A stretch of DNA of 34,980 nucleotides, from contig CALMAB010000712.1 in the NCBI GenBank assembly GCA_937858325.1, positions 1 to 34,980 of the forward strand, in the 5' to 3' direction. Below the pieces are notes generated by a model. That model was not told where the DNA came from. It was given only the letters and a program-made list of their open reading frames with translations, and ran no database searches. Below are positions 10,821-32,119 of the stretch, in pieces; position 1 is the stretch's first letter; each line of letters begins with the position of its first letter. The DNA is from an uncultured Acetobacteraceae bacterium. Its GTDB lineage: Bacteria; Pseudomonadota; Alphaproteobacteria; Acetobacterales; Acetobacteraceae. The position numbers were made by a program, and so were the translations under genes.

Positions 10821-10950
10821 GCGGTTGCTTATCAACCGCAGGCGTTCATGATTTCGGCATGAGCGTGCGTGCGGCGGCATCCCGGGATTGACGGGCCAGC
10901 AACAGGAGGCGGCGATCTCTTTCGTGCGTGCGAAATCCCACGGCCAGGCC

Positions 10951-12147
10951 ATGAGCCAGCGCCCGGGTGATCCGGCGGCCCAACTTGCGGACGCGGTTCG
11001 GCAGGCGAAGCCGATGGCGGCCTTGCTCGGCACGAACGCGCATGCCGTGTCGGCCGCCGTTGATCGCTGCCTTGCCCTGCTGTCTGACGATCCCGTTCGC
11101 GTGGTGCGGGTCCGCGGCCTGCCCGGCACGCCGCTCACCCTGTCGCGGATCGTCGAAGAGATCGGCACCGACCACCCCGGCGGCCCGCGGGCCGATGATG
11201 ACGAGCTGATCGTCCGGGTGCTGGCAACGCGCGCCCGCGGGGAGAGCCAAGTCGCCCTCCTTCTGGAGCAGGCCGAACTCCTGCCGTTGCCGACGCTTGC
11301 CTTCTTGCAGGTGGCGCTCACGGTGTTCGGCACCCGGACGCCGCGGCTGCAGCTGCTGTTTGCCGGGCATCCCAGGTTTCTTCACCTGATCGACCAGGAC
11401 GAACTGGCCCCGCTCCGCGACCGGCTCGGACCTGTGATCCGGGTTCAGGTGCCGCTTGCCGGCGTGGAACTCGGCGCGGCCGTGCCGGGGCGCGTGGGGC
11501 TTGGCGGCACGGCCGCGACGCGGCGCACCATGCCCGGTCCCAGCCGTTGGCGGTGGGTGCTCGCCGCGGTGCCGGCGTTGGTGCTTGCTGCGGTCGTCGC
11601 CATATTCGGCACCGACTGGCATGGTGCGGCGCGGCCGCCCACCCAGGCCGTTGTTGCCCCTGCACCCCCTGTGCAAAGTGATCCGCAGCCGCCGGCTCAA
11701 CCCTTGCCAGGGAACGCGCAGCCGCCATTCGCGCCGGCCTTGCCGCCGCAAGCTGCTGGGCCAGAGGCGGCACCGGTACGGCCCAACCCTGATGCTGATG
11801 TGGCAGCGGTGCCATCCCTCACGCCGCCGCCGGGCCGCGAACCCGATGCGGCAACGGAGCCGGCACCCCTCCCGCCGCCAAGCCGCGAAGCTGACGTGGC
11901 AGTCCTGCCGCCAACCGCCCAACCTTCGCCGCCAAGCCGCGAACCCGAGGTAGCGCCGTCGCCGCCAGAACGCCGCGCTCTGCCGAGCAGCGAGCAGTTG
12001 GCCCGGCTGCGCAGCGAGTTCGACCGCTTCCTGTCCCAAACGGAATGGGGATCAAAGAAGCTGAGCGAAAACGAACGGTCTCGCCTCTTCAATGAGTATC
12101 TTCGCTGGAACTACGGCAGCCTTGCGGCCACCCCTGGTTCGCCCTGA
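10951..12147 (+). CDS. ExeA/GspA-like protein with degenerate ATPase motifs, one TM helix and a Pro-rich tail
   Basis: ORF 10888..12147 (TTG) with ATG at 10951; VALLLEQAELLPLPTLAFLQVALTVFGTRTPRLQLLFAGHPRF aligns by eye with ExeA Walker B/sensor region; TM WVLAAVPALVLAAVVAIFG; Pro-rich tail. Confidence 0.7.
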   Translation: MSQRPGDPAAQLADAVRQAKPMAALLGTNAHAVSAAVDRCLALLSDDPVRVVRVRGLPGTPLTLSRIVEEIGTDHPGGPRADDDELIVRVLATRARGESQVALLLEQAELLPLPTLAFLQVALTVFGTRTPRLQLLFAGHPRFLHLIDQDELAPLRDRLGPVIRVQVPLAGVELGAAVPGRVGLGGTAATRRTMPGPSRWRWVLAAVPALVLAAVVAIFGTDWHGAARPPTQAVVAPAPPVQSDPQPPAQPLPGNAQPPFAPALPPQAAGPEAAPVRPNPDADVAAVPSLTPPPGREPDAATEPAPLPPPSREADVAVLPPTAQPSPPSREPEVAPSPPERRALPSSEQLARLRSEFDRFLSQTEWGSKKLSENERSRLFNEYLRWNYGSLAATPGSP

Positions 12148-15149: not shown

Positions 15150-16151
15150 ATGAGCGACGCGGAACAGGAGTGCCTTGTTTCCATTCTGCTGCCTGCCTAC
15201 AATTCCAGGCACCTGATCGGCACTGCCATCCAGTCGGTTCTCAATCAAACGCATCGTCACTTCGAGCTGATCGTCATCAATGATTGCTCGACGGACGACA
15301 CGGCGGAAGTGGTGGCAAAGTTCGCCCTTGGCGACGACCGGATCAAGCTGCTGCACACGGCGCGCAACGGCGGGCCTGCCGCCGCGCGCAACATCGGGTT
15401 CGATGCCGCGTGCGGACGCTGGATCGCGTTGCTCGATTCTGATGACGCCTACGTGCCGGAACGGCTCACGCGGCTCTTGAAGCTCGCCGATGCGAACGCC
15501 GCACACATGGTGTCGGACAACCTGCTGATGATGCCGGTCGGCGGGACCCCCTATCTGCTGATATCCCCGGACATTTTGGCGTGTCCTCAGCACCTGACGG
15601 CATCGGAATTCATCTACCGCAACATCGGCGATCCGAGAAATCCCCGGCTCAGCTACGGGTTCATGCAGCCCATGATCCGGCGCGACTTCCTGTTGCAGCA
15701 TGGCATCCGATACGACGAGCGGAACCGGTTCGGCGAGGACTTCATGCTCTACGTCGCGTGCCTGCGCGCCGGAGCCCGCTGGTGGGTCACGCCCGAGGTT
15801 CTCTACCATTACGCCACACGGCCGGGATCGCTGACCGAGGTGCAGAGCTCGGGCGACCTGCGGCGGATTGCGCAGCTTGAAGAAGACTATCTAAGCGACC
15901 ACGCTGTTTCGCGGAACGCAACGCTTCTTAGAGTTTTGCGCCAGCACAAGGCCAAGATCGACCGGTTGTACTACTACCGGGCGTTCACCGATGCGGTCAA
16001 ACAGGGGCACCTCGGGGAAGCCGGGCGGCTACTGGTCCAGTCGCCCTTGAGTTCCAGCTACATCTTCCTGGAAACGATCCGCCAAACGCCGGTCATCCTG
16101 CGCAAGACGCTCCGTGGCGGCTACTTCCCCAAAGCCAGCCGCTTCGTTTGA
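15150..16151 (+). CDS. Glycosyltransferase family 2 (ExoO-like)
   Basis: ATG at 15150 inside ORF 15006..16151; VSILLPAYNSRHLIGTAIQSVLNQTHRHFELIVINDCSTDDTAEV and WIALLDSDDAYVPERL. Confidence 0.92.
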   Translation: MSDAEQECLVSILLPAYNSRHLIGTAIQSVLNQTHRHFELIVINDCSTDDTAEVVAKFALGDDRIKLLHTARNGGPAAARNIGFDAACGRWIALLDSDDAYVPERLTRLLKLADANAAHMVSDNLLMMPVGGTPYLLISPDILACPQHLTASEFIYRNIGDPRNPRLSYGFMQPMIRRDFLLQHGIRYDERNRFGEDFMLYVACLRAGARWWVTPEVLYHYATRPGSLTEVQSSGDLRRIAQLEEDYLSDHAVSRNATLLRVLRQHKAKIDRLYYYRAFTDAVKQGHLGEAGRLLVQSPLSSSYIFLETIRQTPVILRKTLRGGYFPKASRFV

Positions 16152-17616
16152 GTGCGGAGCCTAAAACCGCAACCTCCTTCGTCAACACCGCCGGCAGCGT
16201 CTTCAGCAAAATGGCGATGTCGTGCCACAAGGACCAATTCCGCACATACCAGACATCGAGGGACACGCGATGCTCGTAGGTCGTGTTGCTCCGTCCGCTG
16301 ACCTGCCAAAGCCCGGTGATCCCCGGCTTGGTTTCAAAGTAGTAGGAGATGTCGCGGCCGTAGCGCGGGATTTCGGCGTCGATGATCGGGCGGGGGCCGA
16401 CCAGGCTCATCTCGCCGCGGACGACGTTGAGCAGTTGCGGCAGCTCGTCGAGGCTCGTCTTGCGGAGCACCCGGCCGATGGGGGTGATGCGGGGGTCATC
16501 CTGGAGCTTATGCGTCGCCAGCCATTGCGCCTTTGCCTGCGGATCGGTGTCAAGCACCTGGTGCAGCACCCCGTCCGCGTTCGTGACCATGGAGCGGAAC
16601 TTGAAGCAGCGGAACGTCCGCCCGTTTTCGCCGACCCGGCGGTGGCCGAACAGCGCCGGACCGCCATCGGCACGGATCAGCATGGCAAGCGCCAAGAAGA
16701 GCGGCGACAGGACCACCAGCAGGAGCAACGCCACTGCCTGGTCGAACAGCGCCTTGACGAAGCGGCTGATCGGACGCGCAAGGTTGTTGCCATACACCAG
16801 CAACGTCACGTCGTGGGTGAAGAAGTACTGGCTGTCAAAGGCGCTGACCGGCAGCCCGTCGAAAGCCGGCACGAGCGCGAAGGGCACGCGCTCGCGCGAC
16901 AGGTCCTCGGCGAAACGGGCCGCCTCACCGGAGATGTCGCCCCGCGTCGCGATGACCGCGAACTCCGCATCGTGCTGCTCCAGCAGCCACGTCCCGCGGC
17001 CCGGAGCGTGGTTGACCGCGTGCAAACCGACCGAGGCGACCACTTCGTAGCCGAGCCGGGCATCCGACTGGAACGCCGCCCGCGTTGATTTCAGGGCGGC
17101 GTCGTCGCCGATAATGAGGGTGCGCAGCCGCCACACGCCGAAGTCGTCAAGGATCGTCCGGGCCAGCTTGCGCATCAGGAGCAGGCAGGGCAGGAGCAGG
17201 ACCCAGCGGGATACGCTTTCAAACCCGAGGTGCGAGCCGTAAACGATGACGCGGATGTAGCTGTCGCACAGGAAGCCGATGGCCAACCCCGCTGCGAGGC
17301 TACGCAGTTCCGTCCAGATGGGCACACGCAAGGTGTAATGGCCGCGGCAGCCGAAATAAGCGACGAGCAGGCCGGCGACGAGCAGGCTGCCCCACCCGTG
17401 CCAACCGAATCCTTGGGTGGGGATCTGGCGCAACACCAGGTCCAGGGATACGTTGGCAAAGGTCATATGGGCGAACAACCCCGCCGCCGCCGCCAGGAAC
17501 AGCGCAACGATGTCGGCAGAGAACATTGCCATCCAGCGGATCGTCGCTGGCCTGAACGGCGCGCGTCGAACACGCGATTGTGACGAAGTCTCACGCGTTA
17601 GAGAGTTGACATGCAT
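16093..17616 (-). CDS. Undecaprenyl-phosphate glycosylphosphotransferase, WbaP-like
   Basis: 507 aa; N-terminal TM segments; FKFRSMVTNAD, RKTSLDELPQLLNVVRGEMSLVGPRPI, KPGITGLWQVSGRSNTTYEHRVSLDVWYVRNWSLWHDI. Confidence 0.94.
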   Translation of the reverse strand: MHVNSLTRETSSQSRVRRAPFRPATIRWMAMFSADIVALFLAAAAGLFAHMTFANVSLDLVLRQIPTQGFGWHGWGSLLVAGLLVAYFGCRGHYTLRVPIWTELRSLAAGLAIGFLCDSYIRVIVYGSHLGFESVSRWVLLLPCLLLMRKLARTILDDFGVWRLRTLIIGDDAALKSTRAAFQSDARLGYEVVASVGLHAVNHAPGRGTWLLEQHDAEFAVIATRGDISGEAARFAEDLSRERVPFALVPAFDGLPVSAFDSQYFFTHDVTLLVYGNNLARPISRFVKALFDQAVALLLLVVLSPLFLALAMLIRADGGPALFGHRRVGENGRTFRCFKFRSMVTNADGVLHQVLDTDPQAKAQWLATHKLQDDPRITPIGRVLRKTSLDELPQLLNVVRGEMSLVGPRPIIDAEIPRYGRDISYYFETKPGITGLWQVSGRSNTTYEHRVSLDVWYVRNWSLWHDIAILLKTLPAVLTKEVAVLGSALKRSGWLWGSSRHGASCAG

Positions 17617-17873: not shown

Positions 17874-18473
17874 CTAGAAGATCCGCTCGAACACCGTGAT
17901 GACGTCGCCGGGTTGAACCAGCGTCTCCCGTATGGCGCCGCCCTCGGTCGTTTCCGGAGTCTTGTTGCTGGTGCGGACGATTGAGAACCGGTTCGTAACC
18001 GCGCGATAGGTGAAGCCGCCGGCCACCGCCGCCGCCGTGACGACGGTCATGGCAGGCTGATAAGGATACTGCCCCGGGCGGGCCACCTCGCCCAAGATGA
18101 AGATCGGCCGGTAGGCGATCACCTCGACCGAGACGCTGGGGTTCCTGTACAGCTTGGACCGGGTCAGCGCCTGGGCGACCGACGCCTCCAACTGCTTCGG
18201 GGTCAGGCCGCCAGCGTGTACGTCGCCAACGAGCGGCAGGGCGATCTCCCCGGCCGCATCGACCCGGAACTCGCCCGTCAACTGCTGCTCGCCGAACGTG
18301 ATGATGCGGATCTGGTCGCCCGGTCCCAACGTGTAGATGCTGGCATTCACATCGGGAACGGGCGGAAGCCCGGAACCACTGCAGCCCACAAGGCCAACCA
18401 TCGGCGCCGCCGCGATGCCGGCCAATGCGACCCGCCTCGACAGCAATCCGGGCCTTGTACTTGTCACACGCAT
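17874..18473 (-). CDS. Polysaccharide export lipoprotein, Wza/GumB-type
   Basis: 199 aa; lipobox-like LVGC; YTLGPGDQIRIITFGEQQLTGEFRVDAAGEIALPLVGDVHAGGLT and IFILGEVARPGQYPYQPAMTV. Confidence 0.93.
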   Translation of the reverse strand: MRVTSTRPGLLSRRVALAGIAAAPMVGLVGCSGSGLPPVPDVNASIYTLGPGDQIRIITFGEQQLTGEFRVDAAGEIALPLVGDVHAGGLTPKQLEASVAQALTRSKLYRNPSVSVEVIAYRPIFILGEVARPGQYPYQPAMTVVTAAAVAGGFTYRAVTNRFSIVRTSNKTPETTEGGAIRETLVQPGDVITVFERIF

Positions 18474-18685: not shown

Positions 18686-20086
18686 ATGGATGGCGGCGGA
18701 GGGGTCATGGCACGGTCAGGAACACGGCGGCGCCTGTCGTGTGTCGGGGTCGGCCTGCTGGCGTGGGGCTTCTCGTCAGGCGCCCATGCGCAGTACGTTG
18801 AAAGCTACTTCCCTACGGGCGTGCCAGGCTTTGACCGTGATCAAGGGGTGACGGTGCTGTCCCGGCTCCGGCCCTTGTATGATGAACCCGGCGTGCGGCT
18901 CGGGGCCTACACCGTCAACGCGCGCTTGGACGAAAGCGTCGGCTACGACTCGAACATCCTGGGCATCAGCGGTGGGCCGAGCAGCGGCTTTGTCAGGACA
19001 TCGCCCTCGGTCAGCGCCAATTCCAACTGGTCCCGCAACCGCTTCGGCATCTCCGTCAGCGCGGACAACTACTCGTACTTCACCGCCTCGCCGCAAAACT
19101 ACACCAACTACAACGTTTCGGTAGGCGGCGGTTACACGATTGGCCGGCATGATCTGGACATCGGCTACTCGCACTTCCGGCAGCACACGTTGGGCACGGA
19201 CATCGGCGCCATCGCGACGACGACGCCGCTGCCCTACGACGTCGATGCCGTCCGCGCGGACTACACGATTGAGGCCGGCCGTTTCTCCTTCGTACCCAAC
19301 GTCGATGTGCGCCTGTTCCAATTCGGCAGTGCCCCCGTCCTCGGGCAGCCGACCAACCAAAACTTCCGCGACCGGACGGTGCTGCTGGGCGGCGTCACGA
19401 CGCGCTACAGCCTCAGCGACCAGCGCAGCATTTTGGTCGTGCTGCAGGGCATCAACTCGCACTACATCCGGCCGCAGAACGGGCAGGTCAGCAACAACTC
19501 GAAAAGCGTCCTGCTCCTGGCTGGCATCGACTACCAGGCGACCGGCTTGTGGCGCTACCGCCTGCTCGGCGGGGTCGAGGTGCGGGACTTCCAATCGTCC
19601 GTTTACGGCACCCGCACGGCCCCCATTGCCGAGGCGAACGTGATCTACACGCCGACGGGGCTGACCACCCTGACCGGCTACGTGCGGCGGCAGATCGAGG
19701 ACGCGCAAGCGGAGGGGACCGCCGGCTACACCCTCACGACAACCGGCGTCGTCGTGGACCATGAACTCCAGCGCAACGTCCTGCTGCAGGGCCGGGGCAG
19801 CTTCCAGGCGGCGGAATATTTCCAATCTACCGGCACCACGACGAGCTACACGCTGGGCGGCGGCGTGAACTGGCTGGTCAACCGCCGCTTGCGCTTGTCC
19901 GCTGATTACGACTTCACGCAGCAGAGCAGTCCCGGCAACACAACGGTCGTCGGCACCCAAGTCGTGACGTCGCCGCTCAGCACCACCCAGCAGTTGATTA
20001 CACCCACCAGCCAAGCGTTGAACACGCTGACCACGGGCAACTACAACCGTAACGTCCTGCTGTTCGGCATCCACCTGGCGTTGTGA
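18686..20086 (+). CDS. Outer-membrane beta-barrel protein of the EPS locus
   Basis: 466 aa; signal peptide ending near SSGAHAQ; repeated amphipathic strands (SVSADNYSYFTASPQNYTNYNVSVGGGYTIGRHDLDIGYSHF); C-terminal NRNVLLFGIHLAL. Confidence 0.85.
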   Translation: MDGGGGVMARSGTRRRLSCVGVGLLAWGFSSGAHAQYVESYFPTGVPGFDRDQGVTVLSRLRPLYDEPGVRLGAYTVNARLDESVGYDSNILGISGGPSSGFVRTSPSVSANSNWSRNRFGISVSADNYSYFTASPQNYTNYNVSVGGGYTIGRHDLDIGYSHFRQHTLGTDIGAIATTTPLPYDVDAVRADYTIEAGRFSFVPNVDVRLFQFGSAPVLGQPTNQNFRDRTVLLGGVTTRYSLSDQRSILVVLQGINSHYIRPQNGQVSNNSKSVLLLAGIDYQATGLWRYRLLGGVEVRDFQSSVYGTRTAPIAEANVIYTPTGLTTLTGYVRRQIEDAQAEGTAGYTLTTTGVVVDHELQRNVLLQGRGSFQAAEYFQSTGTTTSYTLGGGVNWLVNRRLRLSADYDFTQQSSPGNTTVVGTQVVTSPLSTTQQLITPTSQALNTLTTGNYNRNVLLFGIHLAL

Positions 20087-20120: not shown

Positions 20121-21443
20121 TCAGCCGAACGCGCCCCCGTTGTGGAGCGGCAGCCCACGGTCGAGCGCTTCCCGCATGAGGATGTAGTGCTGCAGCATCG
20201 GTTCGGAGAAAGCAAAACAGTCTGGGCCGATGCTCCGGCAGGCCCGCACCGTGCCGGTGTCCATGAGCCGCTCCCACACGCCCGGCTCCAGCCAATGGTC
20301 GGCGATGTAGTGCGCGCCTTCGTGCTCGGACACGATGAAGCGGGCAAAGCGGTCCTGCTCCCCGGCGGCGATGGCGCGCAGGCTTTCGAGCATCCCACGG
20401 TCGCGCTCGCCTCCCGTGATCCCTTGGTAGATCGCGGCCACGCGGGGATCGGCCTCGTCCACCGCCCGGCGGAAGGCCGCCAATAGGTCCGGCGGCTCGA
20501 CCTCCGGCGACGCGCGTGCAATCGCCTCCGTCCCCGCGTGCAATCCGAGAAGCTGGGCCACGTACGGCACGCCGCGGGCGACGTTCACGACGGCGTGGCG
20601 CACCTCCGGCAGAAACTCGATCCCGGCGTCCCGGCCGCCTTGCACAAGGATCTCGTCGATCTCGGTGTCGGACAGCAGCGGCAGGGCAAGGCCGAGGATG
20701 TTGCGCTGGATGGACGGGTGCCGCCCGACCAGTTCCTCAAGGCTGTCGGACACGCCGACGATGATGAAGCTGATCGCCGCGCCGCGGTCGGAGGCCTGCT
20801 TGATCGCGTCGGCGAACCAGGTCCGCGTCGCCGAGTCTTCCACGCGGTCGAACTCGTCCGCGATCAGCACGACGTGACGCCCGGCGAGACGGCCGGGCAG
20901 GGCGGCCACGTCGCGCGGCTGCACCCGGGCGCGCGGCAACGCGGCCTCGCACCCTTCAAGCTCGTCGTCCTGCACGATGGGCGCCGCCAGCATCGATTTC
21001 GGCAGGTCGCGCGCCAGCCCGCGCACGATGTCCTCGAAGCAGCTGTCAAAGGAGCAGGTGTAGCGGCCGACCATGTAGCCGGAACTCCGGGCGGCCGAGG
21101 CCACCAGGTTCACAAGGGAGGTCTTGCCGCGCCCGCGCTCGCCGTATAGCACGACGTGCGCCCGGTCGAGCGCGATGGCGCGGAAAATCCGCAGCAGCTC
21201 CGTCTGCCGTCCGCTGACCCGGCGCGAGCTGCGCTGCGGGCGCGTCGGCGTGAACACCTCGCGCAACGCGTGCTGCTGGGAAGGCGACGGCGCGATGTCG
21301 GTGGGGGAGGGGCCGCCAGGACGCGCGACGCCTGGGCGCGGAGGCATACTGAGGCGGGGCGCCGCGGCGTGCCGGGACGGCGCCAGGGAAACCTCCGGCG
21401 CAGGACGCGGCGAACGGCGGAGCATGCGCGTGACGAAACTCAT
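20121..21443 (-). CDS. AAA family ATPase (ORC/Cdc6-like P-loop ATPase)
   Basis: Start at MSFVTRMLRRSPRP inside ORF 20121..21473; Walker A VLYGERGRGKTSLVNLV, Walker B VVLIADEFDRVED. Confidence 0.88.
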   Translation of the reverse strand: MSFVTRMLRRSPRPAPEVSLAPSRHAAAPRLSMPPRPGVARPGGPSPTDIAPSPSQQHALREVFTPTRPQRSSRRVSGRQTELLRIFRAIALDRAHVVLYGERGRGKTSLVNLVASAARSSGYMVGRYTCSFDSCFEDIVRGLARDLPKSMLAAPIVQDDELEGCEAALPRARVQPRDVAALPGRLAGRHVVLIADEFDRVEDSATRTWFADAIKQASDRGAAISFIIVGVSDSLEELVGRHPSIQRNILGLALPLLSDTEIDEILVQGGRDAGIEFLPEVRHAVVNVARGVPYVAQLLGLHAGTEAIARASPEVEPPDLLAAFRRAVDEADPRVAAIYQGITGGERDRGMLESLRAIAAGEQDRFARFIVSEHEGAHYIADHWLEPGVWERLMDTGTVRACRSIGPDCFAFSEPMLQHYILMREALDRGLPLHNGGAFG

Positions 21444-21445
21444 GG

Positions 21446-22816
21446 ATGGAAGTAAATCACCTAGATGCTGCAATGCAACGCAAACCGTCGAACCATTTGG
21501 CGGATTTCAAGCAACACGTTCGCGTGACTCCCCGGAGATACTTTGTGCGCTTGACATTTCTGAACACGCTCTACCCACCCTACGGCGCGGCTGGGGCGGA
21601 GACGACGCTTCGCGTGCTCGCGCAACAGATGATGGGCCGCGGCCATGATTGCAACGTGGTGACGCTCACCCCGGGACGGCGGGCCGAGGCGCGCGAGATC
21701 GACGGCATCCCCGTACACTACATCCCGCTTGCAAACGTCTTTTGGCCGCACGGCGCAAGTAAAACAATGCCGTGGCGGCTCATGTTCCAAGCAGTGGAGG
21801 CATTCAACCCCGTGATGCAGCGGCGGCTCACCCGCTTGCTGCGCCGCTTGTCCCCTGATGTCGTGAACTTCCACAACCTCCAGGGCTTCTCGGCCTCGGT
21901 ATGGGCGGCGGCGCAGGGCCTGGGCATTCCCATCGTGCAAACGTTGCACGACTACTACACGGCCTGCCCGCGCAGCGCCATGTGGCGGCCCGGCCGGGGC
22001 AACTGCACGTCGCTTTGCGCGGAGTGCCGGGTGTTCAGCCGTCCGCGCCGGGCCATGTCGCGGATCCCGGACATGGTGACTTGCGTCAGCAACCGGGTGT
22101 TTGACCGCCTCACCGCGGCGGGCGCCTTTCCCCGCGCCGTGACGGGACGGCAGCCCATCCGCATCATCCGCGGCAACAACGCGGCGGACGCGCTGCCCGA
22201 GGCCGCGCCACCGGTGTCCCGCACGCCGCTCCGCCTGGGCTTCATGGGACGGCTCGACCCGTCCAAAGGCTTGGAGAACCTGATCGACGCGGTCCGGCGC
22301 TTGCCGGATGGCGCGGCTTCCCTCAGCATCGCCGGAACGGGAAAGCCCGACTACACGGCGGCGCTGCACGCGCGGGCGGCGAACGCGGCGGGCATCACCT
22401 TTGTCGGCCACGCCGCGCCGCCGGAATTCTTCCCATCCATCGACCTGCTGGTGGTTCCCTCGGTTTGGGAGGACCCGTTTCCCCGCGTGTACCATGAGGC
22501 CCTGGCCTACGGCGTGCCGAGCCTGGCGACGCCGCTGGGCGGGCTTTCGGAGGTGGTCGAGCATGGCCGCAACGGCTTCCTCATCGCGGGAACCGACGCG
22601 GAGGCGCTGTTCGCCAGTCTGACGGCGCTGATCAGCACTCCGTGGGATCGCGCAGCCGTGTTCGCGGAATGCCGCAAAGCCGCCGCAAACTTCGCGCCCT
22701 CTCGCATCACCGCCGAATACGAGGCAGTGCTGGAGGCAGCCGCCGCCCGCCGGCCGGTCCCGGAAGGGGCCGGCGCATTCTGGCGCGGCGCAACGGCCCA
22801 GCCCTGCCACTTGTAA
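21446..22816 (+). CDS. Glycosyltransferase family 4
   Basis: LNTLYPPYGAAGAETTLRVLAQQM, LGFMGRLDPSKGLENLIDAV, VVPSVWEDPFPRVYHEALAYGVPSLATPLGGLSEVV; start uncertain (ATG 21473 or GTG 21545 possible). Confidence 0.92.
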   Translation: MEVNHLDAAMQRKPSNHLADFKQHVRVTPRRYFVRLTFLNTLYPPYGAAGAETTLRVLAQQMMGRGHDCNVVTLTPGRRAEAREIDGIPVHYIPLANVFWPHGASKTMPWRLMFQAVEAFNPVMQRRLTRLLRRLSPDVVNFHNLQGFSASVWAAAQGLGIPIVQTLHDYYTACPRSAMWRPGRGNCTSLCAECRVFSRPRRAMSRIPDMVTCVSNRVFDRLTAAGAFPRAVTGRQPIRIIRGNNAADALPEAAPPVSRTPLRLGFMGRLDPSKGLENLIDAVRRLPDGAASLSIAGTGKPDYTAALHARAANAAGITFVGHAAPPEFFPSIDLLVVPSVWEDPFPRVYHEALAYGVPSLATPLGGLSEVVEHGRNGFLIAGTDAEALFASLTALISTPWDRAAVFAECRKAAANFAPSRITAEYEAVLEAAAARRPVPEGAGAFWRGATAQPCHL

Positions 22817-22838: not shown

Positions 22839-23996
22839 TTGCTGGGTCAGCAACTGCTCGCCGGTGCCTGCGTCCTTGCGGGCATCGGCGTGCATCCATT
22901 CACTACGTATCCCCTGAGCCTGGCGCTGCTTGACCGCTTTCGACCGCGGCTCAGCGTAGCGGCGCGCCCGGCGCAGCCGACCCCGCCGCCCCGCGTGGCG
23001 CTGTGCGTTTGCGCCTACAACGAGGAAAAGGTCATCCGCGCCAAGGCCGACAACATGGTCAGCATGCGCAAGGCGGTGCCCGGCCTGGAACTGCTGGTCT
23101 ATGTCGATGCGTCGTCGGACGGCACGGCCGAAATCCTGCGCGAGTATGACGGCGTGATCACCGTCCACGCCTCGCCGACGCGGCACGGCAAGACCTACGG
23201 GATGAACACGCTCGTCCAGCAGACGGACGCCGACATCCTGGTGTTCTCCGACGCGAACGTCACCTTTGCGCCCGACGCCATCCCCCGGCTGCTGCAGCAA
23301 TTCGACGACCCGGCGGTGGGGTGCGTGTGCGGCCACCTCGTTTACACCCGGGCCAGCGACAGCGCCACGGCGGTGACGGGCTCGCTGTATTGGCGTTTGG
23401 AAGAGGCCATCAAGGAGCTTGAGTCGCGCAGCGGATCGACCATGGGCGCGGACGGGTCGATCTTCGCGATCCGGCGCGCGCTGCACCGCCCGCCGCCGCC
23501 CGACATCATCGACGACATGTTCGTGTCCTTGTCGATCCTGTGCGGCGGCCACCGGATCGTGCGGGCCAGCGACGCGCTGGCTTATGAGGAGGCGGCAACG
23601 CATCCCGGGGACGAGTTCCGGCGCAAGGTCCGCATTGCCTGCCAGGCGTTCAACGTGCACCGGCTGCTGCGGGCCGAGTTGGCCAAGCTTCCGTTGTTCG
23701 ACCGCTACAAGTACGTCTCGCACAAGCTGCTACGCTGGTTCGCGGCCTACCTGATGGGAGCAGCCGTGCTGTGCTTCGCGGCGGGACTGGCTGTATTGGG
23801 TGCATGGAGGCTGTTGCTGCTGTGCGCCCTGGCTGGAGCGGTGTTTCTGGTTGTCGCGCGGCTGCGTCCCGCCGGGCCGTTCGGCAAGCTCCTCGGTATC
23901 GCCGCGGCGTTCGTGGCAACCGGCTTGGGCGTTGCCCAGTCCGTGCGCGGCGAGCGGTTCCAGATCTGGACGCCCCCCGCCTCCGCCCGCGGCTGA
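22839..23996 (+). CDS. Membrane-associated glycosyltransferase family 2
   Basis: 385 aa, TTG start; VALCVCAYNEEKVIRAKADNM, DILVFSDANVTF, TM segments near the C-terminus. Confidence 0.9.
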   Translation: MLGQQLLAGACVLAGIGVHPFTTYPLSLALLDRFRPRLSVAARPAQPTPPPRVALCVCAYNEEKVIRAKADNMVSMRKAVPGLELLVYVDASSDGTAEILREYDGVITVHASPTRHGKTYGMNTLVQQTDADILVFSDANVTFAPDAIPRLLQQFDDPAVGCVCGHLVYTRASDSATAVTGSLYWRLEEAIKELESRSGSTMGADGSIFAIRRALHRPPPPDIIDDMFVSLSILCGGHRIVRASDALAYEEAATHPGDEFRRKVRIACQAFNVHRLLRAELAKLPLFDRYKYVSHKLLRWFAAYLMGAAVLCFAAGLAVLGAWRLLLLCALAGAVFLVVARLRPAGPFGKLLGIAAAFVATGLGVAQSVRGERFQIWTPPASARG

Positions 23997-24041: not shown

Positions 24042-24069
24042 GACCCGGCATCAGGCTCCTCTCCGGGTC
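24042..24069. terminator. Candidate terminator hairpin between convergent genes
   Basis: GACCCGG (24042-24048) / CCGGGTC (24063-24069). Confidence 0.3.
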
Positions 24070-26251
24070 AAGCCGCCATGTTGAGCGCCAGCACGACCGG
24101 CTTACGGGACGCGACGGCCAGCGTGTGCATCGACTCGCGCACCGCCGCCCGCCTCGCACGCTTGGCGCCAACCACCAGGACGACGGCGTCAACGATGTGC
24201 GCCAGCACCATGCTTTGCGTGGCGCTGCCGATTGGCTGGCTGTCCATGACCACGAGGTTGTACTCGTCGCGCGCCTCGGCGACCAGGTTCTGCAGCTGCA
24301 TCGAGTCCAGGAGTTGGTTCGCCGCAGGCTGCGGCCCGGCGACGAGCAGGTGGTCAAGCGACGTGCGCCTGTCCTGCTGCACCTGCTCCTGCCAGTGCTC
24401 GCTGCCCTGAAGCGTATCGATCAGGCCGTTGGAGGGCGGGATCTTGAGCACGCGGGCGAGCGATGGCTCCCGCAGGTCGCCTTCGAGCAACAGGACCCGA
24501 AGCCCATCGATGGCCGCCACGCGGGCGAACGCCGCGGTGAACTCCGCCGTTCCCTCCCCGGCCGAGCTGGACACGAACAGCACGCTGCGCGGCACCGAGC
24601 CGCGCCCGGAGAACCGCAGCCGGGTGCGCAGCGAGCGCAGGGCCTCCGCTTCCGGCCCGCTCGGGTCGGCGGCGACGCACTCCGCCAAGGACACCCCGTT
24701 TGCCGGGCGCGGCACGGTGCCGAGCGGCGTCAGGCCAAGGGCGCCCTTGATTTCGTCCGGCCCGCCAAAACCCTTGTCGCGGCGGCCCCGCGCCAGCGAC
24801 AGCAGCCCGCCAAAGGCGCAGCCGCTCAACAGGCCCAGCAGCCCCGCGATCTTCGGCCTGGGGCTGGACGGAAAGGACGGCGCCACGGCCAGGCTGACCA
24901 CGCGCACGCCGCTCTGCTCAGGCCCGATCTTGCGGGACGCGGTTTGCGCCTCGCCTTGCAGCAGGGTTTGCAGGACGTTGCGGCGCGATTCCGCATCCTT
25001 TTCGAGCTGCTGCAGCTCGGACTGTACCGCGGCGAGGCCGCCGGCGTTCTTTTGCGCGTTTTCGAGCTGGTTCTTCAGGTCAGCCTCGCGCGCGCGCGCG
25101 GAGTCCGCCTGCGCGTTGAGCGAGGCCAGGACCCGCTGCGTTTCCGCCGCGAGCGCGCGGCGCACGGACGCAAGCTCGGCCTGCGCCGCGCCGATCTGCG
25201 GGTGGCCTTGGCCCAGCGTCGTCGAAAGCTGCGACAGCTTGCGGTCCGCCGCCGCTTCCTTGTCCCGCAAGCCGCTGATGGTGCTGGAGCCGAGCACCGC
25301 GACGTTGTCGTTCGACACGACCCCGGCCCGGGCGATGGCGCCGGCGCGCTGGACGTTCGCCACCGCCTGCGCGCGCTCGGCGCTGGCGTGGGTCAGGGCG
25401 CTGGACAGATCCTCAAGCTGCTGCTGGCTGACGCTGCCGGCTCGCGTCTGCACGAGGTTGTACTTTTCCCGCGTCGCGGCGATCTTGCCTTCAAGGTCGC
25501 CGATCTCCTTGCGCGCTTCCACCACCCGCCGCGACAGCTCGGAGTTGGCGTCGCTGTTGGCGGCGCTGCGGCTTTGCGCCTTGTCCGCCGTGTAGTTCTT
25601 GATGACGCTGTTCACCACGGCAGCGGCCATGTTCGCGTCCTTGGACGTGAACTGGACCAGCACGATCAGGCTGCGGTTGTCGTTGATGATGCTGAGGTGC
25701 TGCGCGATGCTGCCGATGACGCCGTCCTTCTGCACCGCGTCCGGCGGCGGCTCGATGGGCTGGGACGCGTCGGGCAGCAGGCCCACGTCGATCAGCGGCT
25801 GTGCCACGGCGTCCGGCAACGCGGCCGAGATGGACCGCTTCGCCTGCTCGCCCCAGGGCAGCGGGCGCAGCGCGGCGTTGAATTCCGGGTTGTCGATCAG
25901 GTGCAGGTCGTCGGCCACCTTTTGCAGCAGGGAGCGCGACGTCAGGATCTGCACCTCGCTGCGGACCTGCGGCATCGGGTCCGACAACCCTTCGCCGCTG
26001 AGTGCCCCTTGCAGCACCGGAACGGTGAAGCGCTCCATGTCGATCGACAGGGTTCCCGCCGTGGTGAACTGCTTGGGGACCGAAGTCACGGTATAGGCAT
26101 ACCCAGCCGCGCCGAACAGCAGGCCGAACAACAGGATCAGGGGCCAGTTGCGGCGGAGCGTCGCCAGGAGTTGCGCCGGGGAGATAACCGATTCGTCGGC
26201 CGCCGGAGGCGTCTTCTCAAACCGCTCGTCGAGGAGCGCAAGCTCCGACAT
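24068..26251 (-). CDS. Wzc/GumC/ExoP-like polysaccharide co-polymerase fused to a BY-kinase-like domain (degenerate Walker A)
   Basis: Start at MSELALLDERFEKTPP inside ORF 24068..26320; Wzz domain, coiled coil, then SVLFVSSSAGEGTAEFTAAFARVA, VLLLEGDLREPSLARVL, NLVVMDSQPIG. Confidence 0.92.
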   Translation of the reverse strand: MSELALLDERFEKTPPAADESVISPAQLLATLRRNWPLILLFGLLFGAAGYAYTVTSVPKQFTTAGTLSIDMERFTVPVLQGALSGEGLSDPMPQVRSEVQILTSRSLLQKVADDLHLIDNPEFNAALRPLPWGEQAKRSISAALPDAVAQPLIDVGLLPDASQPIEPPPDAVQKDGVIGSIAQHLSIINDNRSLIVLVQFTSKDANMAAAVVNSVIKNYTADKAQSRSAANSDANSELSRRVVEARKEIGDLEGKIAATREKYNLVQTRAGSVSQQQLEDLSSALTHASAERAQAVANVQRAGAIARAGVVSNDNVAVLGSSTISGLRDKEAAADRKLSQLSTTLGQGHPQIGAAQAELASVRRALAAETQRVLASLNAQADSARAREADLKNQLENAQKNAGGLAAVQSELQQLEKDAESRRNVLQTLLQGEAQTASRKIGPEQSGVRVVSLAVAPSFPSSPRPKIAGLLGLLSGCAFGGLLSLARGRRDKGFGGPDEIKGALGLTPLGTVPRPANGVSLAECVAADPSGPEAEALRSLRTRLRFSGRGSVPRSVLFVSSSAGEGTAEFTAAFARVAAIDGLRVLLLEGDLREPSLARVLKIPPSNGLIDTLQGSEHWQEQVQQDRRTSLDHLLVAGPQPAANQLLDSMQLQNLVAEARDEYNLVVMDSQPIGSATQSMVLAHIVDAVVLVVGAKRARRAAVRESMHTLAVASRKPVVLALNMAA

Positions 26252-26403
26252 GCCTAGTGTCCTTTCCTGCGAACCGGCAAGCGCCGGCCGGCTAAGCTTT
26301 CCGGTGATGCAACGCAGCAACGCGCCGAACGGTGCAGGCCGCCCGGACGAGTTTTAAGCGGTTGTGACTTTTGGCCGGGTTGCAACGATGCCATCTAACA
26401 GTC

Positions 26404-27318
26404 ATGCACAACGGGATAGCGTATTTCATATTGGCCCACCATCGGCCCCAGCAACTGCGCTGGCTCGTCGAAGCCTTGGCGCGGCCTCGCAGCTCCGGCC
26501 GCGACACGATTATCCTGCATATCGACCGCAAGTCGATGCTGGGCCTCAAGGCCGACCGGCGCGGCATCTGGCAAATGGCGAAGGCGCTGGCGGCCGAATA
26601 CCCGAATCTGATCCTTATGCGGCCGCACTTCACCAACTGGGGCGGGTGGAGCCTGGCACGCATCCAGCTCGATGCCATCGCCGTCGCGTTGAAGGCCTCT
26701 GCCGAATGGTCGCATTTCGTCAATCTGAGTGGGCAGTGCTATCCAATCAAGCCGATTGAACACATCCGACAGGCACTTGCCGCCGATCCGGATCAAGTCT
26801 TTGTGGAACTGCGGCACCTTTCGACGCTGCCGGCCGATGACTGGCACCTGCGCTGGCATCCGATGCTTGAGCTGCCGCACCGCGCCGTGAAGTTCAAAGG
26901 CCCGCGCCAACCACCGTCCGATTTCGAGCTCGCTTACAAAGGCTCGCAGTGGTCGATCCTGCCCCGCGCCTTCTGCGAATGGCAGCAGCGCGCGCCCATC
27001 GTCAGGCCCATCAAACGGTATCTCAGCCGCCTGCTGCTGTCCGACGAGCTGATCATGCAGACGCTGGTCCGCAACGGTCCGTGGCGCGACAAGGTGGCGC
27101 CGCATTACGGGCGGGAGATCATCTTTCCCGGCCCCACGGTGCTCACCCGGGACGACCTGCCCCGGCTGCTGTCCAGTTCCGCTTTCATTTCACGCAAGTT
27201 TGACCACGAGCGCGATCCCGAGGTCCTGCCGCAACTGGCCCGGCAGCTAGGGTTCCCGATGAGCGGGCCGCCCCCGTCGCGCGTGGACGCCGTGCCGGAC
27301 GAGGCGCTGGTGCAGTGA
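26404..27318 (+). CDS. GT14-like (core-2/I-branching type) glycosyltransferase
   Basis: ATG at 26404 inside ORF 26371..27318; GIAYFILAHHRPQQLRWLVEAL, IILHIDRKS, VNLSGQCYPIKPIEHI, GSQWSILPRAFCEW. Confidence 0.88.
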   Translation: MHNGIAYFILAHHRPQQLRWLVEALARPRSSGRDTIILHIDRKSMLGLKADRRGIWQMAKALAAEYPNLILMRPHFTNWGGWSLARIQLDAIAVALKASAEWSHFVNLSGQCYPIKPIEHIRQALAADPDQVFVELRHLSTLPADDWHLRWHPMLELPHRAVKFKGPRQPPSDFELAYKGSQWSILPRAFCEWQQRAPIVRPIKRYLSRLLLSDELIMQTLVRNGPWRDKVAPHYGREIIFPGPTVLTRDDLPRLLSSSAFISRKFDHERDPEVLPQLARQLGFPMSGPPPSRVDAVPDEALVQ

Positions 27319-28484
27319 GCCGAACCATGCGGGTGGCATTGATCGATCCGTCGCTGTTCACCTTGCCCTACGACGCGGCGCTGGCGGCCGGGCTGCAGGC
27401 GCAAGGGCACCAGGTCGTGCTGCACGGCCGTGCGCCCGGCCCGGACGACAACGCCACCGAGGGTGCGCCGCTGCGCGCGAGCTTCTACCGGGTCGCCGGC
27501 GCCCCGGCCCTTGCGCGCCTGCCCCGGGCGCTTCGGCTGGGCATCAAGGGCCTCGACCACGCCTGGTCGATGGGGGCGCTGGTGCGGCGGCTGCGGCGGG
27601 AGCGCCCGGACGTGATCCATTTCCAATGGCTGCCGTTGCCGATGGTGGACCGGCACTTCCTGCGGCGCTTGCGCGGGATCGCCCCGCTGGTGCTGACCGT
27701 GCACGACACCAACCCGTTCAACGGCAATCCCACCGGCGGGCTGCAGCGGGTGGGCGCCCACGCGGCGTTCGCGGATTTCGACCGCCTGATCGTGCACACC
27801 GAGCAAGGCCGCGCCCGGCTGCTGGCCCATGGGGAGGGGAAGGACCGGGTGGTGATGCTGCCGCACGGGCTGCTCGGGCGCGCTTCGGCGCAGGCCCGCG
27901 CGGACGCCATGCAGGGGGAGATCACCTTTCTGCTGTTCGGCAAGATCAAGCCCTACAAAGGCGCCGACCTGCTGATCGAGGCCTTCGCGCAACTGGACCC
28001 GGCGCTGCGCGCGCAGGCGCGGTTGCGGATCGTCGGCAAGCCCTACATGGATTTGACGCCGCTGCACGACCTGGCCCGGCAACGGGGCGTCGCCGACCGG
28101 GTGGCCATCGAGCCGCGCTTCGTCTGTGACTCGGAGGTGGGCGGCATCTTCGCCCCCGGCGTCGTCGCCTGCTTTCCTTACCGCGAGATCGAGGCGAGCG
28201 GCGTGCTGAGCCTGGCCCTCACCTTCGGCCGCCCGATCCTCGCGACGCGCCTCGGCGGCTTCATCGAGGCGGTGGAGGACGGCGAGCACGGGTTTCTGGT
28301 GCCGCCCGAGGACGTGGGCGAGCTTTCCGCCGCCATGGCGCGCTTCGTCGCGGACCGCCCGTTCGCAGCGGCCTGCGCGGCGCGCGTCCTTGCGCTGACG
28401 GCCTCCGTTCCAACTTGGCCGGAGATCGCCCGGCGGACGGCCGAACTCTACGCTTCCCTGCCGCCCGTCCCGCCCCCCCGATAG
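27315..28484 (+). CDS. Glycosyltransferase family 4
   Basis: 389 aa; GTG start overlapping the upstream TGA (GTGA); LLFGKIKPYKGADLLIEAF and FPYREIEASGVLSLALTFGRPILATRLGGFIEAVEDGEHGFLV. Confidence 0.92.
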   Translation: MSRTMRVALIDPSLFTLPYDAALAAGLQAQGHQVVLHGRAPGPDDNATEGAPLRASFYRVAGAPALARLPRALRLGIKGLDHAWSMGALVRRLRRERPDVIHFQWLPLPMVDRHFLRRLRGIAPLVLTVHDTNPFNGNPTGGLQRVGAHAAFADFDRLIVHTEQGRARLLAHGEGKDRVVMLPHGLLGRASAQARADAMQGEITFLLFGKIKPYKGADLLIEAFAQLDPALRAQARLRIVGKPYMDLTPLHDLARQRGVADRVAIEPRFVCDSEVGGIFAPGVVACFPYREIEASGVLSLALTFGRPILATRLGGFIEAVEDGEHGFLVPPEDVGELSAAMARFVADRPFAAACAARVLALTASVPTWPEIARRTAELYASLPPVPPPR

Positions 28485-28505
28485 CGGCGCCGGGTCAGGC
28501 GCCGC
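28484..28505. terminator. Candidate bidirectional terminator hairpin between convergent genes
   Basis: GCGGCGCC-GGGTCA-GGCGCCGC, perfect 8-bp stem with 6-nt loop in an approximately 10-bp intergenic gap; no U-tract. Confidence 0.4.
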
Positions 28506-29460
28506 GTTGCAGCCCGGCGCGCAGCGCCTTGGCCGCTTCCGGCAGGCGGCCGTCCGTGACCTTGGCATCGTAGTCCGGGGCGCGGTAGTTCCAATAGCAG
28601 GCGTAATCGACCGGGCCGCCGTCCCGCATCCAGTTCAGCATGTTGCGGACGAACACGGGATCGTCGCCGGCGCCGTGCCCATCGGGCCGCGTGCCGGTGC
28701 CCCATTCCGGGAAGGAGCGGGGCTTGCCATGGGTCTTGGCGAAATCGCGGTGCCAGCGCAGGCCGGCCTCGTGGTCCAGCAGGTATTGCCAGCGTTGCGC
28801 CGGGTCGGCGATCAGCGGCCAGGACTGGTTGTAAACGTCGAGGCCGATGATATCGACCACGTCGTTGCCGGGGTAAACCTCGTCCCTGGGGCCATCGACG
28901 GTGGTGGCGCTCCAATCGAAGCGGAAGCGCGCACCGGGCACGCCGCGCATCGCCAGCGCGATGCGGCGCCAGTAGGCCTTGAAATCGGCCGGGTTGCCGC
29001 GCGCCGTCCAGGAATACCAGCCGCCGTTGAACTCCCAGCCGATGCGGACCACGCTGTTTCCGTAGGAAGTCTCGACCAGCTTGCGGCCCAGCGCCGCGAA
29101 GTGCTGGTCGTAGTCGCCCCGCGCGCCTTGGGCCAGGGTCGGCTGCCCCTCGCTCACCAGCATCGGCACGGAAACGATCAGGTTCTTGCGCCCGGCGTCC
29201 CGCCAGCAGCCGGCCATCCATCCGGCCTCGTTCACCATTCCCGCCCATGTTTCCTTTTCAAGGAAGTCCAGCACCACGTCGAGCGGTCGGCCGAGCCACT
29301 TTTCGTAAGCGGCAACCTCCGGCACGCCGGTGTAGCCGGCGCCGCCATAGGTGCCAATGCGGACGCCCGGCGCCCCCCGGGCCGGCGCGGCCGACGCCAC
29401 GACCACCGCAGCTGCGGTGCGGGCGAGGGCGCGGCGCGTGAGGCTGGTTGGATCGGTCAT
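28495..29460 (-). CDS. GH26-like endoglycanase with Tat-like signal peptide
   Basis: ATG (minus) at 29458-29460 inside ORF 28495..30123; TRRALARTAAAVVVASAAPARG leader; VVRIGWEFNGGWYSW and SFPEWGTGTR as putative catalytic Glu segments. Confidence 0.85.
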   Translation of the reverse strand: MTDPTSLTRRALARTAAAVVVASAAPARGAPGVRIGTYGGAGYTGVPEVAAYEKWLGRPLDVVLDFLEKETWAGMVNEAGWMAGCWRDAGRKNLIVSVPMLVSEGQPTLAQGARGDYDQHFAALGRKLVETSYGNSVVRIGWEFNGGWYSWTARGNPADFKAYWRRIALAMRGVPGARFRFDWSATTVDGPRDEVYPGNDVVDIIGLDVYNQSWPLIADPAQRWQYLLDHEAGLRWHRDFAKTHGKPRSFPEWGTGTRPDGHGAGDDPVFVRNMLNWMRDGGPVDYACYWNYRAPDYDAKVTDGRLPEAAKALRAGLQRGA

Positions 29461-30626: not shown

Positions 30627-30832
30627 CTTGATCTTTCACCAGCAAACGCCGGCCATGATTTGTGATAGAAGCACAATTAAAACACACCCGGCGCTTTATC
30701 TACTCTTTTTTGAACATTGAACGGCTGCGCGCTACCCTTGTAGATCACGATTGTGCGATGTCGCCGCAGAGGCGTTCCCGGCACGCCCACGCCGGGCGCG
30801 ACGGGCCTGCTCGCGCGGTCCATAATGCCGAC

Positions 30833-32119
30833 ATGGCCTTTTCCACGAAAACAGCCGAGTTCACCGCGGCGCGTCCGAGCCGTGCGATTCCGGTCACGGC
30901 GCTGCAGCCATCGATCTGGCGCGGCCGGCTCGGCGTCAACGCCTTTACCTGGGGCACGCTGTTCTGCTGCATCGTGCTGCAGCGTTTCGCGATCCCGGCG
31001 GCCGGCCTCAAGATCAGCATGGCGACCCCGTTGGTGCTCAGCCTGGCCGCCTGGGCGGTCGCGAGCGGCACGCTGGTCATCGAGCGGCGTCGGATGGCGC
31101 TGTATTGCGGGCTTTGCGCCGTGGCCCTGTTCTCGGTCGCCACCCAGATCAACCTGCCGCTCGCGATGGCGCCGCGGATGAGCCTGACCTCCCTGTACTA
31201 TTGGCTGGCCATCACCGGGTTCGCCGTGCTGCGGTTCCGCCACGCGGTGAGCGAGAGCGCGTTCTTCCGCATCGTGTCGTTCGCCTTGGCAGCGCTCGCC
31301 GTCGCGGGCCTCGCGCAGTTCGCGCTGCAGTTCGTCGGCATCAGCTTGTTCGCCTTCACAGGCATCGTGCCCGACCAGTTCCTGATCGAGGAGCAGTTCA
31401 ACGTCACCATCCCGATCGACCGCGGGCTGAACAAGTCGAACGGGTTCTTCCTCGTCGAGCCTTCCGTGTTCTCCCAGCTCATGGCCTTGGCGGTGGTGAT
31501 CGAGGCACTGTACTTCCGCCGAACCGCCTACCTCGCGATGTTCTTCGTAGCCCTGCTGTCATCCATGTCCGGCACCGGCTGGCTGGTGCTGGGATCGTAT
31601 ATCGCCGTGCTTGCGATCAGCGCCGGGCGGCGCGGCCTTTTGGGGGCCATCCTGCTGGCGGCGGGTTGCGCGCTGGCCTTCACCGCGCTCAGCGTCGTGC
31701 TGCCTGACTTCGCCGACATGATGTCGGGCCGGGTTTACGAGTTCACGCTGCCCGGCACGAGCGGCCATGAGCGGTTCGTGACGCCCTTCCTGGCCTTGCA
31801 GGACCTGCTCAACGCGGCGCCTTGGGTGTCCGTGACCGGGGTTGGACCCGGCGCCTCGGAACAGCTCATGATCCCCTACGTCTATCACCTCAACACCCCG
31901 ATCAAAGTCTTGATGGAGTACGGGATCTTCGGCCTGCTGCTTTACCTTGGCCTCCTCACCTGGGGGACCCGCACCAGGCGGCAATGGACGCTGCTTGCTC
32001 CCCTTATGGTGCTGCTATTGCTGACCGGCGGCTATCACCAGTTCTCGCCTATTCTTTTCGCCGTCCTGCTTGTCGGTACCGTTGCCTTCGTGCATCAGGA
32101 CGAAACCCATGTCAATTAA
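30833..32119 (+). CDS. O-antigen polymerase/ligase-like membrane protein (Wzy-like)
   Basis: ATG at 30833 inside ORF 30662..32119; multiple TM helices; NKSNGFFLVEPSVFSQLMALAVVIEAL, GTGWLVLGSYIAVLAIS, GVGPGASEQLMIPYVYHLNTPIKVLMEYGIFGLLLYLGLL. Confidence 0.88.
   Translation: MAFSTKTAEFTAARPSRAIPVTALQPSIWRGRLGVNAFTWGTLFCCIVLQRFAIPAAGLKISMATPLVLSLAAWAVASGTLVIERRRMALYCGLCAVALFSVATQINLPLAMAPRMSLTSLYYWLAITGFAVLRFRHAVSESAFFRIVSFALAALAVAGLAQFALQFVGISLFAFTGIVPDQFLIEEQFNVTIPIDRGLNKSNGFFLVEPSVFSQLMALAVVIEALYFRRTAYLAMFFVALLSSMSGTGWLVLGSYIAVLAISAGRRGLLGAILLAAGCALAFTALSVVLPDFADMMSGRVYEFTLPGTSGHERFVTPFLALQDLLNAAPWVSVTGVGPGASEQLMIPYVYHLNTPIKVLMEYGIFGLLLYLGLLTWGTRTRRQWTLLAPLMVLLLLTGGYHQFSPILFAVLLVGTVAFVHQDETHVN

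Follow-up and report, generated by a model that had tools for sequence, protein, structure and literature searches.

In a clade of Acetobacteraceae polysaccharide co-polymerases (PCPs), the fused BY-kinase domain has lost its catalytic Lys and the loss is fixed, the domain is under purifying selection, its ring interface is kept, and the gene is accompanied at its locus by an AAA+ ATPase gene. One relative carries a natural fusion in which the ATPase is joined to a PCP lacking the kinase domain. The explanation that we favor for the whole is that the PCP ring is kinase-dead and that its ATP-dependent control has passed to the AAA+ ATPase. Its two parts differ in strength: the fused BY-kinase domain is very probably a pseudokinase scaffold, and the proposal that the ATPase took over the control step is tentative, falling somewhat short of even. 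Coordinates below refer to the window, the whole 34,980-nucleotide stretch that was analysed.

A co-polymerase with a degenerate kinase domain

The protein at issue and its parts are as follows:

24068..26251, minus strand: PCP-2 (Wzc-like) protein of 727 aa with a putative C-terminal BY pseudokinase (family and structure matches)
25904..26173, minus strand: Wzz domain, residues 27-116 (Pfam PF02706, 34.1 bits, over the cut-off)
24788..25024, minus strand: GNVR region and second transmembrane helix, residues 410-488 (Pfam PF13807, hydropathy)
24071..24769, minus strand: putative BY pseudokinase domain, residues 495-727 (TIGR01007, 87 bits; Foldseek to CapAB)
24626..24646, minus strand: retained EX2RX2R ring-interface motif, E536, R539 and R542 (clade alignment)
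24539..24571, minus strand: degenerate Walker A, SSSAGEGTAEF (ORF translation)
24464..24493, minus strand: altered Walker A', LLLEGDLREP, with the first Asp replaced by Glu590

The open reading frame begins MSELALLDERF, downstream of an AGGA-type ribosome site. The Wzz domain, two transmembrane helices and a periplasmic coiled coil identify its product as a PCP-2 protein. The first helix spans approximately residues 36-57, inside the Wzz domain, according to the AF2 model, and the hydropathy peak of the second lies at residue 468; the GNVR score (27.4 bits) is just below the cut-off of 27.7. Approximately 230 C-terminal residues match the BY-kinase models TIGR01007 and PRK09841 as well as solved BY-kinases, and this part is therefore a real BY-kinase-fold domain. 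Its fold is also predicted from the model of the protein (mean pLDDT 80.8), in which the pseudokinase part aligns with CapAB crystal structures at a TMt of 0.88-0.91 and an rmsd of 2.1-2.4 Å, and the whole chain retrieves Wzc octamer structures first. The best solved-structure matches are Wzc and CapAB, so that of the earlier label "Wzc/GumC-like" the Wzc half stands and GumC was a loose comparison.

Thr568 (codon 24550-24548, minus strand) stands where the catalytic Lys would be, and the Walker B sequence VVMD ends at 24242 (minus strand). The protein terminates at the last beta strand with ...VVLALNMAA and has no Tyr in its last 40 residues. The original prediction had reported the missing Lys, the altered Walker A' and the absent Tyr-rich tail, and each was confirmed, as were its other statements on the sequence of this protein. 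With neither a Walker A Lys nor a C-terminal Tyr cluster, the protein does not qualify as an active BY-kinase, and the domain is presumably catalytically dead.

The gene belongs to a Wzx/Wzy-type polysaccharide cluster, in which its product would act as the co-polymerase of an exopolysaccharide pathway:

16093..17616, minus strand: WbaP-type initiating sugar-phosphate transferase (TIGR03022, 414 bits, above the cut-off)
17874..18473, minus strand: short outer-membrane polysaccharide export (OPX) protein, Poly_export plus SLBB (PF02563, 85.7 bits)
18686..20086, plus strand: BBP2_2 outer-membrane beta-barrel, probable outer-membrane translocon (PF10082, 160 bits)
21446..22816, plus strand: GT4 glycosyltransferase (family match; cluster member in clade loci)
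22839..23996, plus strand: GT2 glycosyltransferase (family match; cluster member in clade loci)
26371..27318, plus strand: Core-2/I-branching type glycosyltransferase (PF02485, 73.7 bits)
27315..28484, plus strand: GT4 glycosyltransferase (family match)
28495-29460, minus strand: GH26-type glycoside hydrolase, inside the cluster
30662..32119, plus strand: putative Wzy polymerase (about 10 hydrophobic segments, no family match; conserved in clade loci)

An acyltransferase gene is also part of the cluster. No Wzx flippase was found within the window itself, and five relatives (G002, G206, G121, G075 and G232) have a Wzx-type flippase in the same cluster. Congeners encode the GH26-type hydrolase at 89-93% identity, and a role in trimming or editing the polymer is possible. 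A search of three same-genus genomes (G000, G001 and G002) found no LMW-PTP of the Wzb type (PF01451). This absence speaks for the favored explanation, though these genomes also carry canonical Lys+ PCPs.

The PCP had been described as the second degenerate P-loop protein of the locus, the other probably being the product of 10888-12147 (plus strand). That protein is membrane-anchored, and part of it resembles, by eye, an ExeA-like ATPase without a P-loop; it has no Pfam match and no convincing family match. Among the loci checked, only those of the genus have it next to the cluster, and hhalign gave no support for kinship with the AAA+ ATPase. It is not part of the pseudokinase-ATPase story.

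Loss and maintenance across a clade

Relatives were drawn from 60 near genomes, 250 family genomes and a scan of named GTDB contigs, which places the clade in Acetobacteraceae/Rhodospirillales; its named records are all metagenome-assembled. We built the PCP tree from transmembrane and periplasmic columns only, excluding the kinase columns. Seventeen proteins formed one clade (SH-aLRT 98, or 99 after adding six more outgroup rows). Across the 250 family genomes, profile scores split sharply, with clade members at 550 bits or more and proteins outside at 361 bits or less.

The proposed alignment of orthologs, meant to reveal whether the loss is fixed, gave a clear answer: the Walker A Lys is present in 0/17 clade proteins versus 37/37 in a comparison set, which excludes two Lys-lacking PCPs from outside the clade (G022 and G039) and one protein too short for the tree (G049). 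Lys-bearing orthologs, which the original prediction had named as a refuting result, were sought and not found. Tyr is absent from the last 40 residues of all 17, and the first Walker A' Asp is Glu in 14 of 17, as compared with Asp in 31 of 37 outside. These patterns are most simply read as a single loss of Lys and Tyr tail, in the ancestor of this Acetobacteraceae/Rhodospirillales clade. The PCPs of G022 (L027, GSST) and G039 (L024, AGTT) also have no Walker A Lys, and these losses, with that of G049, look separate from the clade's own.

Two same-genus orthologs, at 93% and 78% identity to the window PCP and each from a different assembly, read AGEGAAEF and AAEGAAEI, so the window's P-loop is not a sequencing error; a strain-specific mutation is ruled out in the same way by the recurrence of the loss in independent assemblies. 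Some other clade members still read GEGASG, GEGASS or GEGCSS. Most P-loop columns rank with the best-conserved ones in canonical relatives, and in the clade most of them fall among the more variable. It looks as if Lys was lost once and the active site then eroded step by step, as judged from the alignment and the tree.

The degree of erosion bears on whether the domain could be an atypical kinase, binding nucleotide or acting through a non-canonical site. Three features retained in the window's own subclade speak for such an enzyme: GEG, the Walker B Asp and the second Asp of Walker A'. However, in the second subclade most of the Walker A motif is gone, GEG included, along with Walker A' residues and often the Walker B Asp, and none of the alignment columns that are invariant or almost so across the clade is a Lys. 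We consider an atypical kinase very unlikely.

The missing Walker B Asp in several second-subclade members might instead signal a decaying, non-functional domain. Against the window's two congeners, dN/dS was 0.10 and 0.11 for the pseudokinase part and 0.12 and 0.25 for the rest of the protein, rough values given that dS of the 78% pair is high and unequal between the two parts. All 17 frames are open. EX2RX2R, an interface motif in CapAB (PMC3795738), is acidic at its first position in 15/17 clade proteins and has Arg in 16/17 and 17/17 at the others. The variable P-loop beside this kept motif implies that the catalytic site was lost and the oligomer interface retained. Selection, open frames, fold, interface and the independent assemblies together refute decay or sequencing error in the main, and we regard this reading as negligible. 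Taken together, the fixed loss, the BY-kinase fold, the kept EX2RX2R and a dN/dS of about 0.1 point to a maintained pseudokinase. The domain thus has the predicted fold, the motif and Tyr-tail loss across orthologs, and the purifying selection expected of a BY pseudokinase. The original proposal of a kinase-dead co-polymerase whose regulation does not rely on tyrosine autophosphorylation gains support from the loss in 17/17, the selection and the kept interface.

Phosphorylation or regulation in trans, by intact BY-kinases elsewhere in the genome, would be another route to control. Lys+ PCPs that do end in Tyr-containing tails are encoded in the same genome and genus (L037, L039 and L041 among them), but none of the 17 clade PCPs offers a Tyr tail to phosphorylate, and for the pseudokinase EcpK the authors argue independence from the active kinases of Myxococcus (PMC12004946). 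Regulation in trans is therefore highly improbable.

An AAA+ ATPase companion and a natural fusion

The most informative neighbor of the PCP gene was missing from the original prediction:

20121..21473, minus strand: AAA+ ATPase (AAA_16/AAA_22), proposed partner (Pfam; conserved locus)
21143-21117, minus strand: Walker A of the ATPase, GERGRGKTS (intact P-loop)
20858-20844, minus strand: Walker B of the ATPase, DEFDR (intact)

The protein has both Walker motifs and an AAA+ fold, nearest to Orc1/Cdc6, RuvB and clamp loaders; it had no NCBIfam match at E 0.001. Wherever the flanks of a clade member can be read (16/16), the PCP locus also includes the ATPase gene. It adjoins the PCP gene in either order or lies within about 4 kb, the wider spacing occurring in the window and G206, with two glycosyltransferase genes between, and also in G232. 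Contig ends divide the pair in G020 and G028, and in G067 the contig stops 11 bases past the PCP match. Only 28/250 family genomes have any match to the ATPase, and this search found none beside any Lys+ PCP examined; three canonical Lys+ loci examined in full (L103, L104 and L106) have no AAA+ ATPase. The Walker A Lys and a DE[FV]DR Walker B are intact in 28/28 aligned copies, a few rows of which are the same gene from two sources.

Two candidate observations on the ATPase were rejected. An apparent loss of its P-loop in the second subclade proved to be replacement of the first Gly only, with GKTS intact. The long ATPase frames of G121 (915 aa) and G153 (740 aa) are not additional fusions, as their extra sequence matches no PCP and overlaps a gene read in another frame.

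One genuine fusion was found. On contig 34 of G187 (L095:7662-10538, plus strand), a single 959-aa open frame joins a divergent Wzz-type PCP to the AAA+ ATPase. A Wzz-like part with two hydrophobic segments leads directly into the ATPase, which stands exactly at the usual position of the kinase, and there is no BY-kinase domain. A sugar-phosphate transferase gene lies nearby. Two proteins found fused in this way usually work together. The weight of this case is reduced by the strong divergence of its PCP part (identity of 21% or less, long tree branch) and by the occurrence of the fusion in only 1/19 genomes of its genus.

These observations suggest how the system could operate. Canonical ATP binding and tyrosine phosphorylation would be gone from the pseudokinase, which would still hold the PCP oligomer as a cytoplasmic scaffold ring; that the window PCP assembles into a ring is suggested by its conserved residues. 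A Lys-to-Met mutant of Wzc still forms the octamer (PMC11986026), which makes a Lys-less ring plausible and implies that it should stay assembled unless something dismantles it. Without the Tyr tail, which clamps neighboring subunits in Wzc, the ring may equally need help to assemble. The AAA+ ATPase would dock on the PCP and supply an ATP-driven step that drives or gates assembly and disassembly, in place of the phosphorylation/dephosphorylation cycle. Stated for the class, Acetobacteraceae PCPs would have swapped tyrosine-phosphorylation control for an AAA+ ATPase, with the kinase domain reduced to a docking ring or, in the case of the G187 fusion, replaced outright by the ATPase; we offer this as a distinct possibility, on the lower side of even.

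The simpler rival to take-over by the ATPase is a pure, phosphorylation-independent scaffold, in which the ring suffices and the ATPase is a mere cluster gene, for example acting on WbaP or on the outer-membrane part. EcpK/EpsV and HfsB/HfsA are believed to need no active kinase (PMC12004946). The ATPase gene neighbors the WbaP gene in several loci, and in genus g24 (L096, L097 and L099) it occurs as solitary copies with no PCP gene found nearby, so the ATPase may have other jobs. The genomes of the Lys-lacking G022 and G039 PCPs yielded no ATPase match, and loss of Lys thus does not need the ATPase. On the other side stand the company of ATPase and pseudokinase PCP in 16/16 loci, its absence beside the Lys+ PCPs examined, and the natural fusion to a kinase-less PCP. 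We give the ring-alone reading a substantial chance, roughly that of a strong minority view, and retain ATPase-based control as the working proposal. Genes near the solitary g24 copies include ones that, by eye, resemble acetyl-CoA acetyltransferase and dihydrodipicolinate synthase.

Relation to known systems

BY pseudokinases, fused ones included, are already described in PMC12004946 and its references. EcpK of Myxococcus xanthus is the stand-alone BY pseudokinase of EpsV in a Wzx/Wzy pathway, and like the window domain it has a BY-kinase fold without Walker motifs or Tyr tail and serves a PCP-2 protein (PMC12004946). Its pathway pairs a periplasmic OPX protein with a separate outer-membrane barrel (PMC12004946), and the window cluster also encodes an OPX protein and a barrel. 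Unlike EcpK, the window pseudokinase forms one polypeptide with its PCP, and an AAA+ ATPase gene accompanies it; the EcpK paper does not use the term "AAA ATPase" (PMC12004946). HfsA/HfsB of Caulobacter crescentus, which serve the holdfast, likewise combine an alphaproteobacterial PCP-2 protein with a catalytically dead BY-kinase-like partner, but as two separate proteins rather than one polypeptide (PMC12004946). Whereas EcpK and HfsB are stand-alone partners of a kinase-less PCP-2, the window protein is of the fused subtype. Cuthbertson et al., as cited in PMC12004946, list fused PCP-2/pseudokinase variants, namely S. meliloti SMc01795, Mesorhizobium Mlr8439 and Vibrio VV1_2305: they share the domain order, the inactive BY-kinase part and the single polypeptide, a likeness drawn from description.

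E. coli Wzc and S. aureus CapAB share overall architecture, fold and the EX2RX2R interface with the window PCP, which differs in having neither the Lys nor the Tyr tail. Wzc cycles between octamer and dissociated states through phosphorylation of its Tyr tail and dephosphorylation by Wzb (PMC11986026). Work on EcpK and HfsB leaves the question of how a PCP-2 ring can cycle in the absence of tyrosine phosphorylation. The clade offers a testable candidate answer in a dedicated AAA+ ATPase, together with a fusion showing the domain that it may replace.

The conserved AAA+ ATPase companion of a pseudokinase PCP clade appears to be new. In the open-access literature searched, we found no report of an AAA ATPase paired with a PCP, nor of the clade, its apparently single-origin loss, the ATPase companion or the kinase-less fusion. 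The XrtA/PEP-CTERM locus also encodes a P-loop ATPase (TIGR03015) next to the PCP genes of an exopolysaccharide cluster; that locus carries a canonical tyrosine kinase (TIGR03018) as well, and the window ATPase differs in matching no NCBIfam model.

The clade further provides an evolutionary series from an intact kinase through a partly to a fully eroded site, with the ring interface conserved throughout. Outside it, and counting against the favored explanation, G396 (L127:5021-7342, plus strand) encodes a PCP with an intact Lys and no Tyr tail near a 33% identical homolog of the AAA+ ATPase, possibly an intermediate state in another family.
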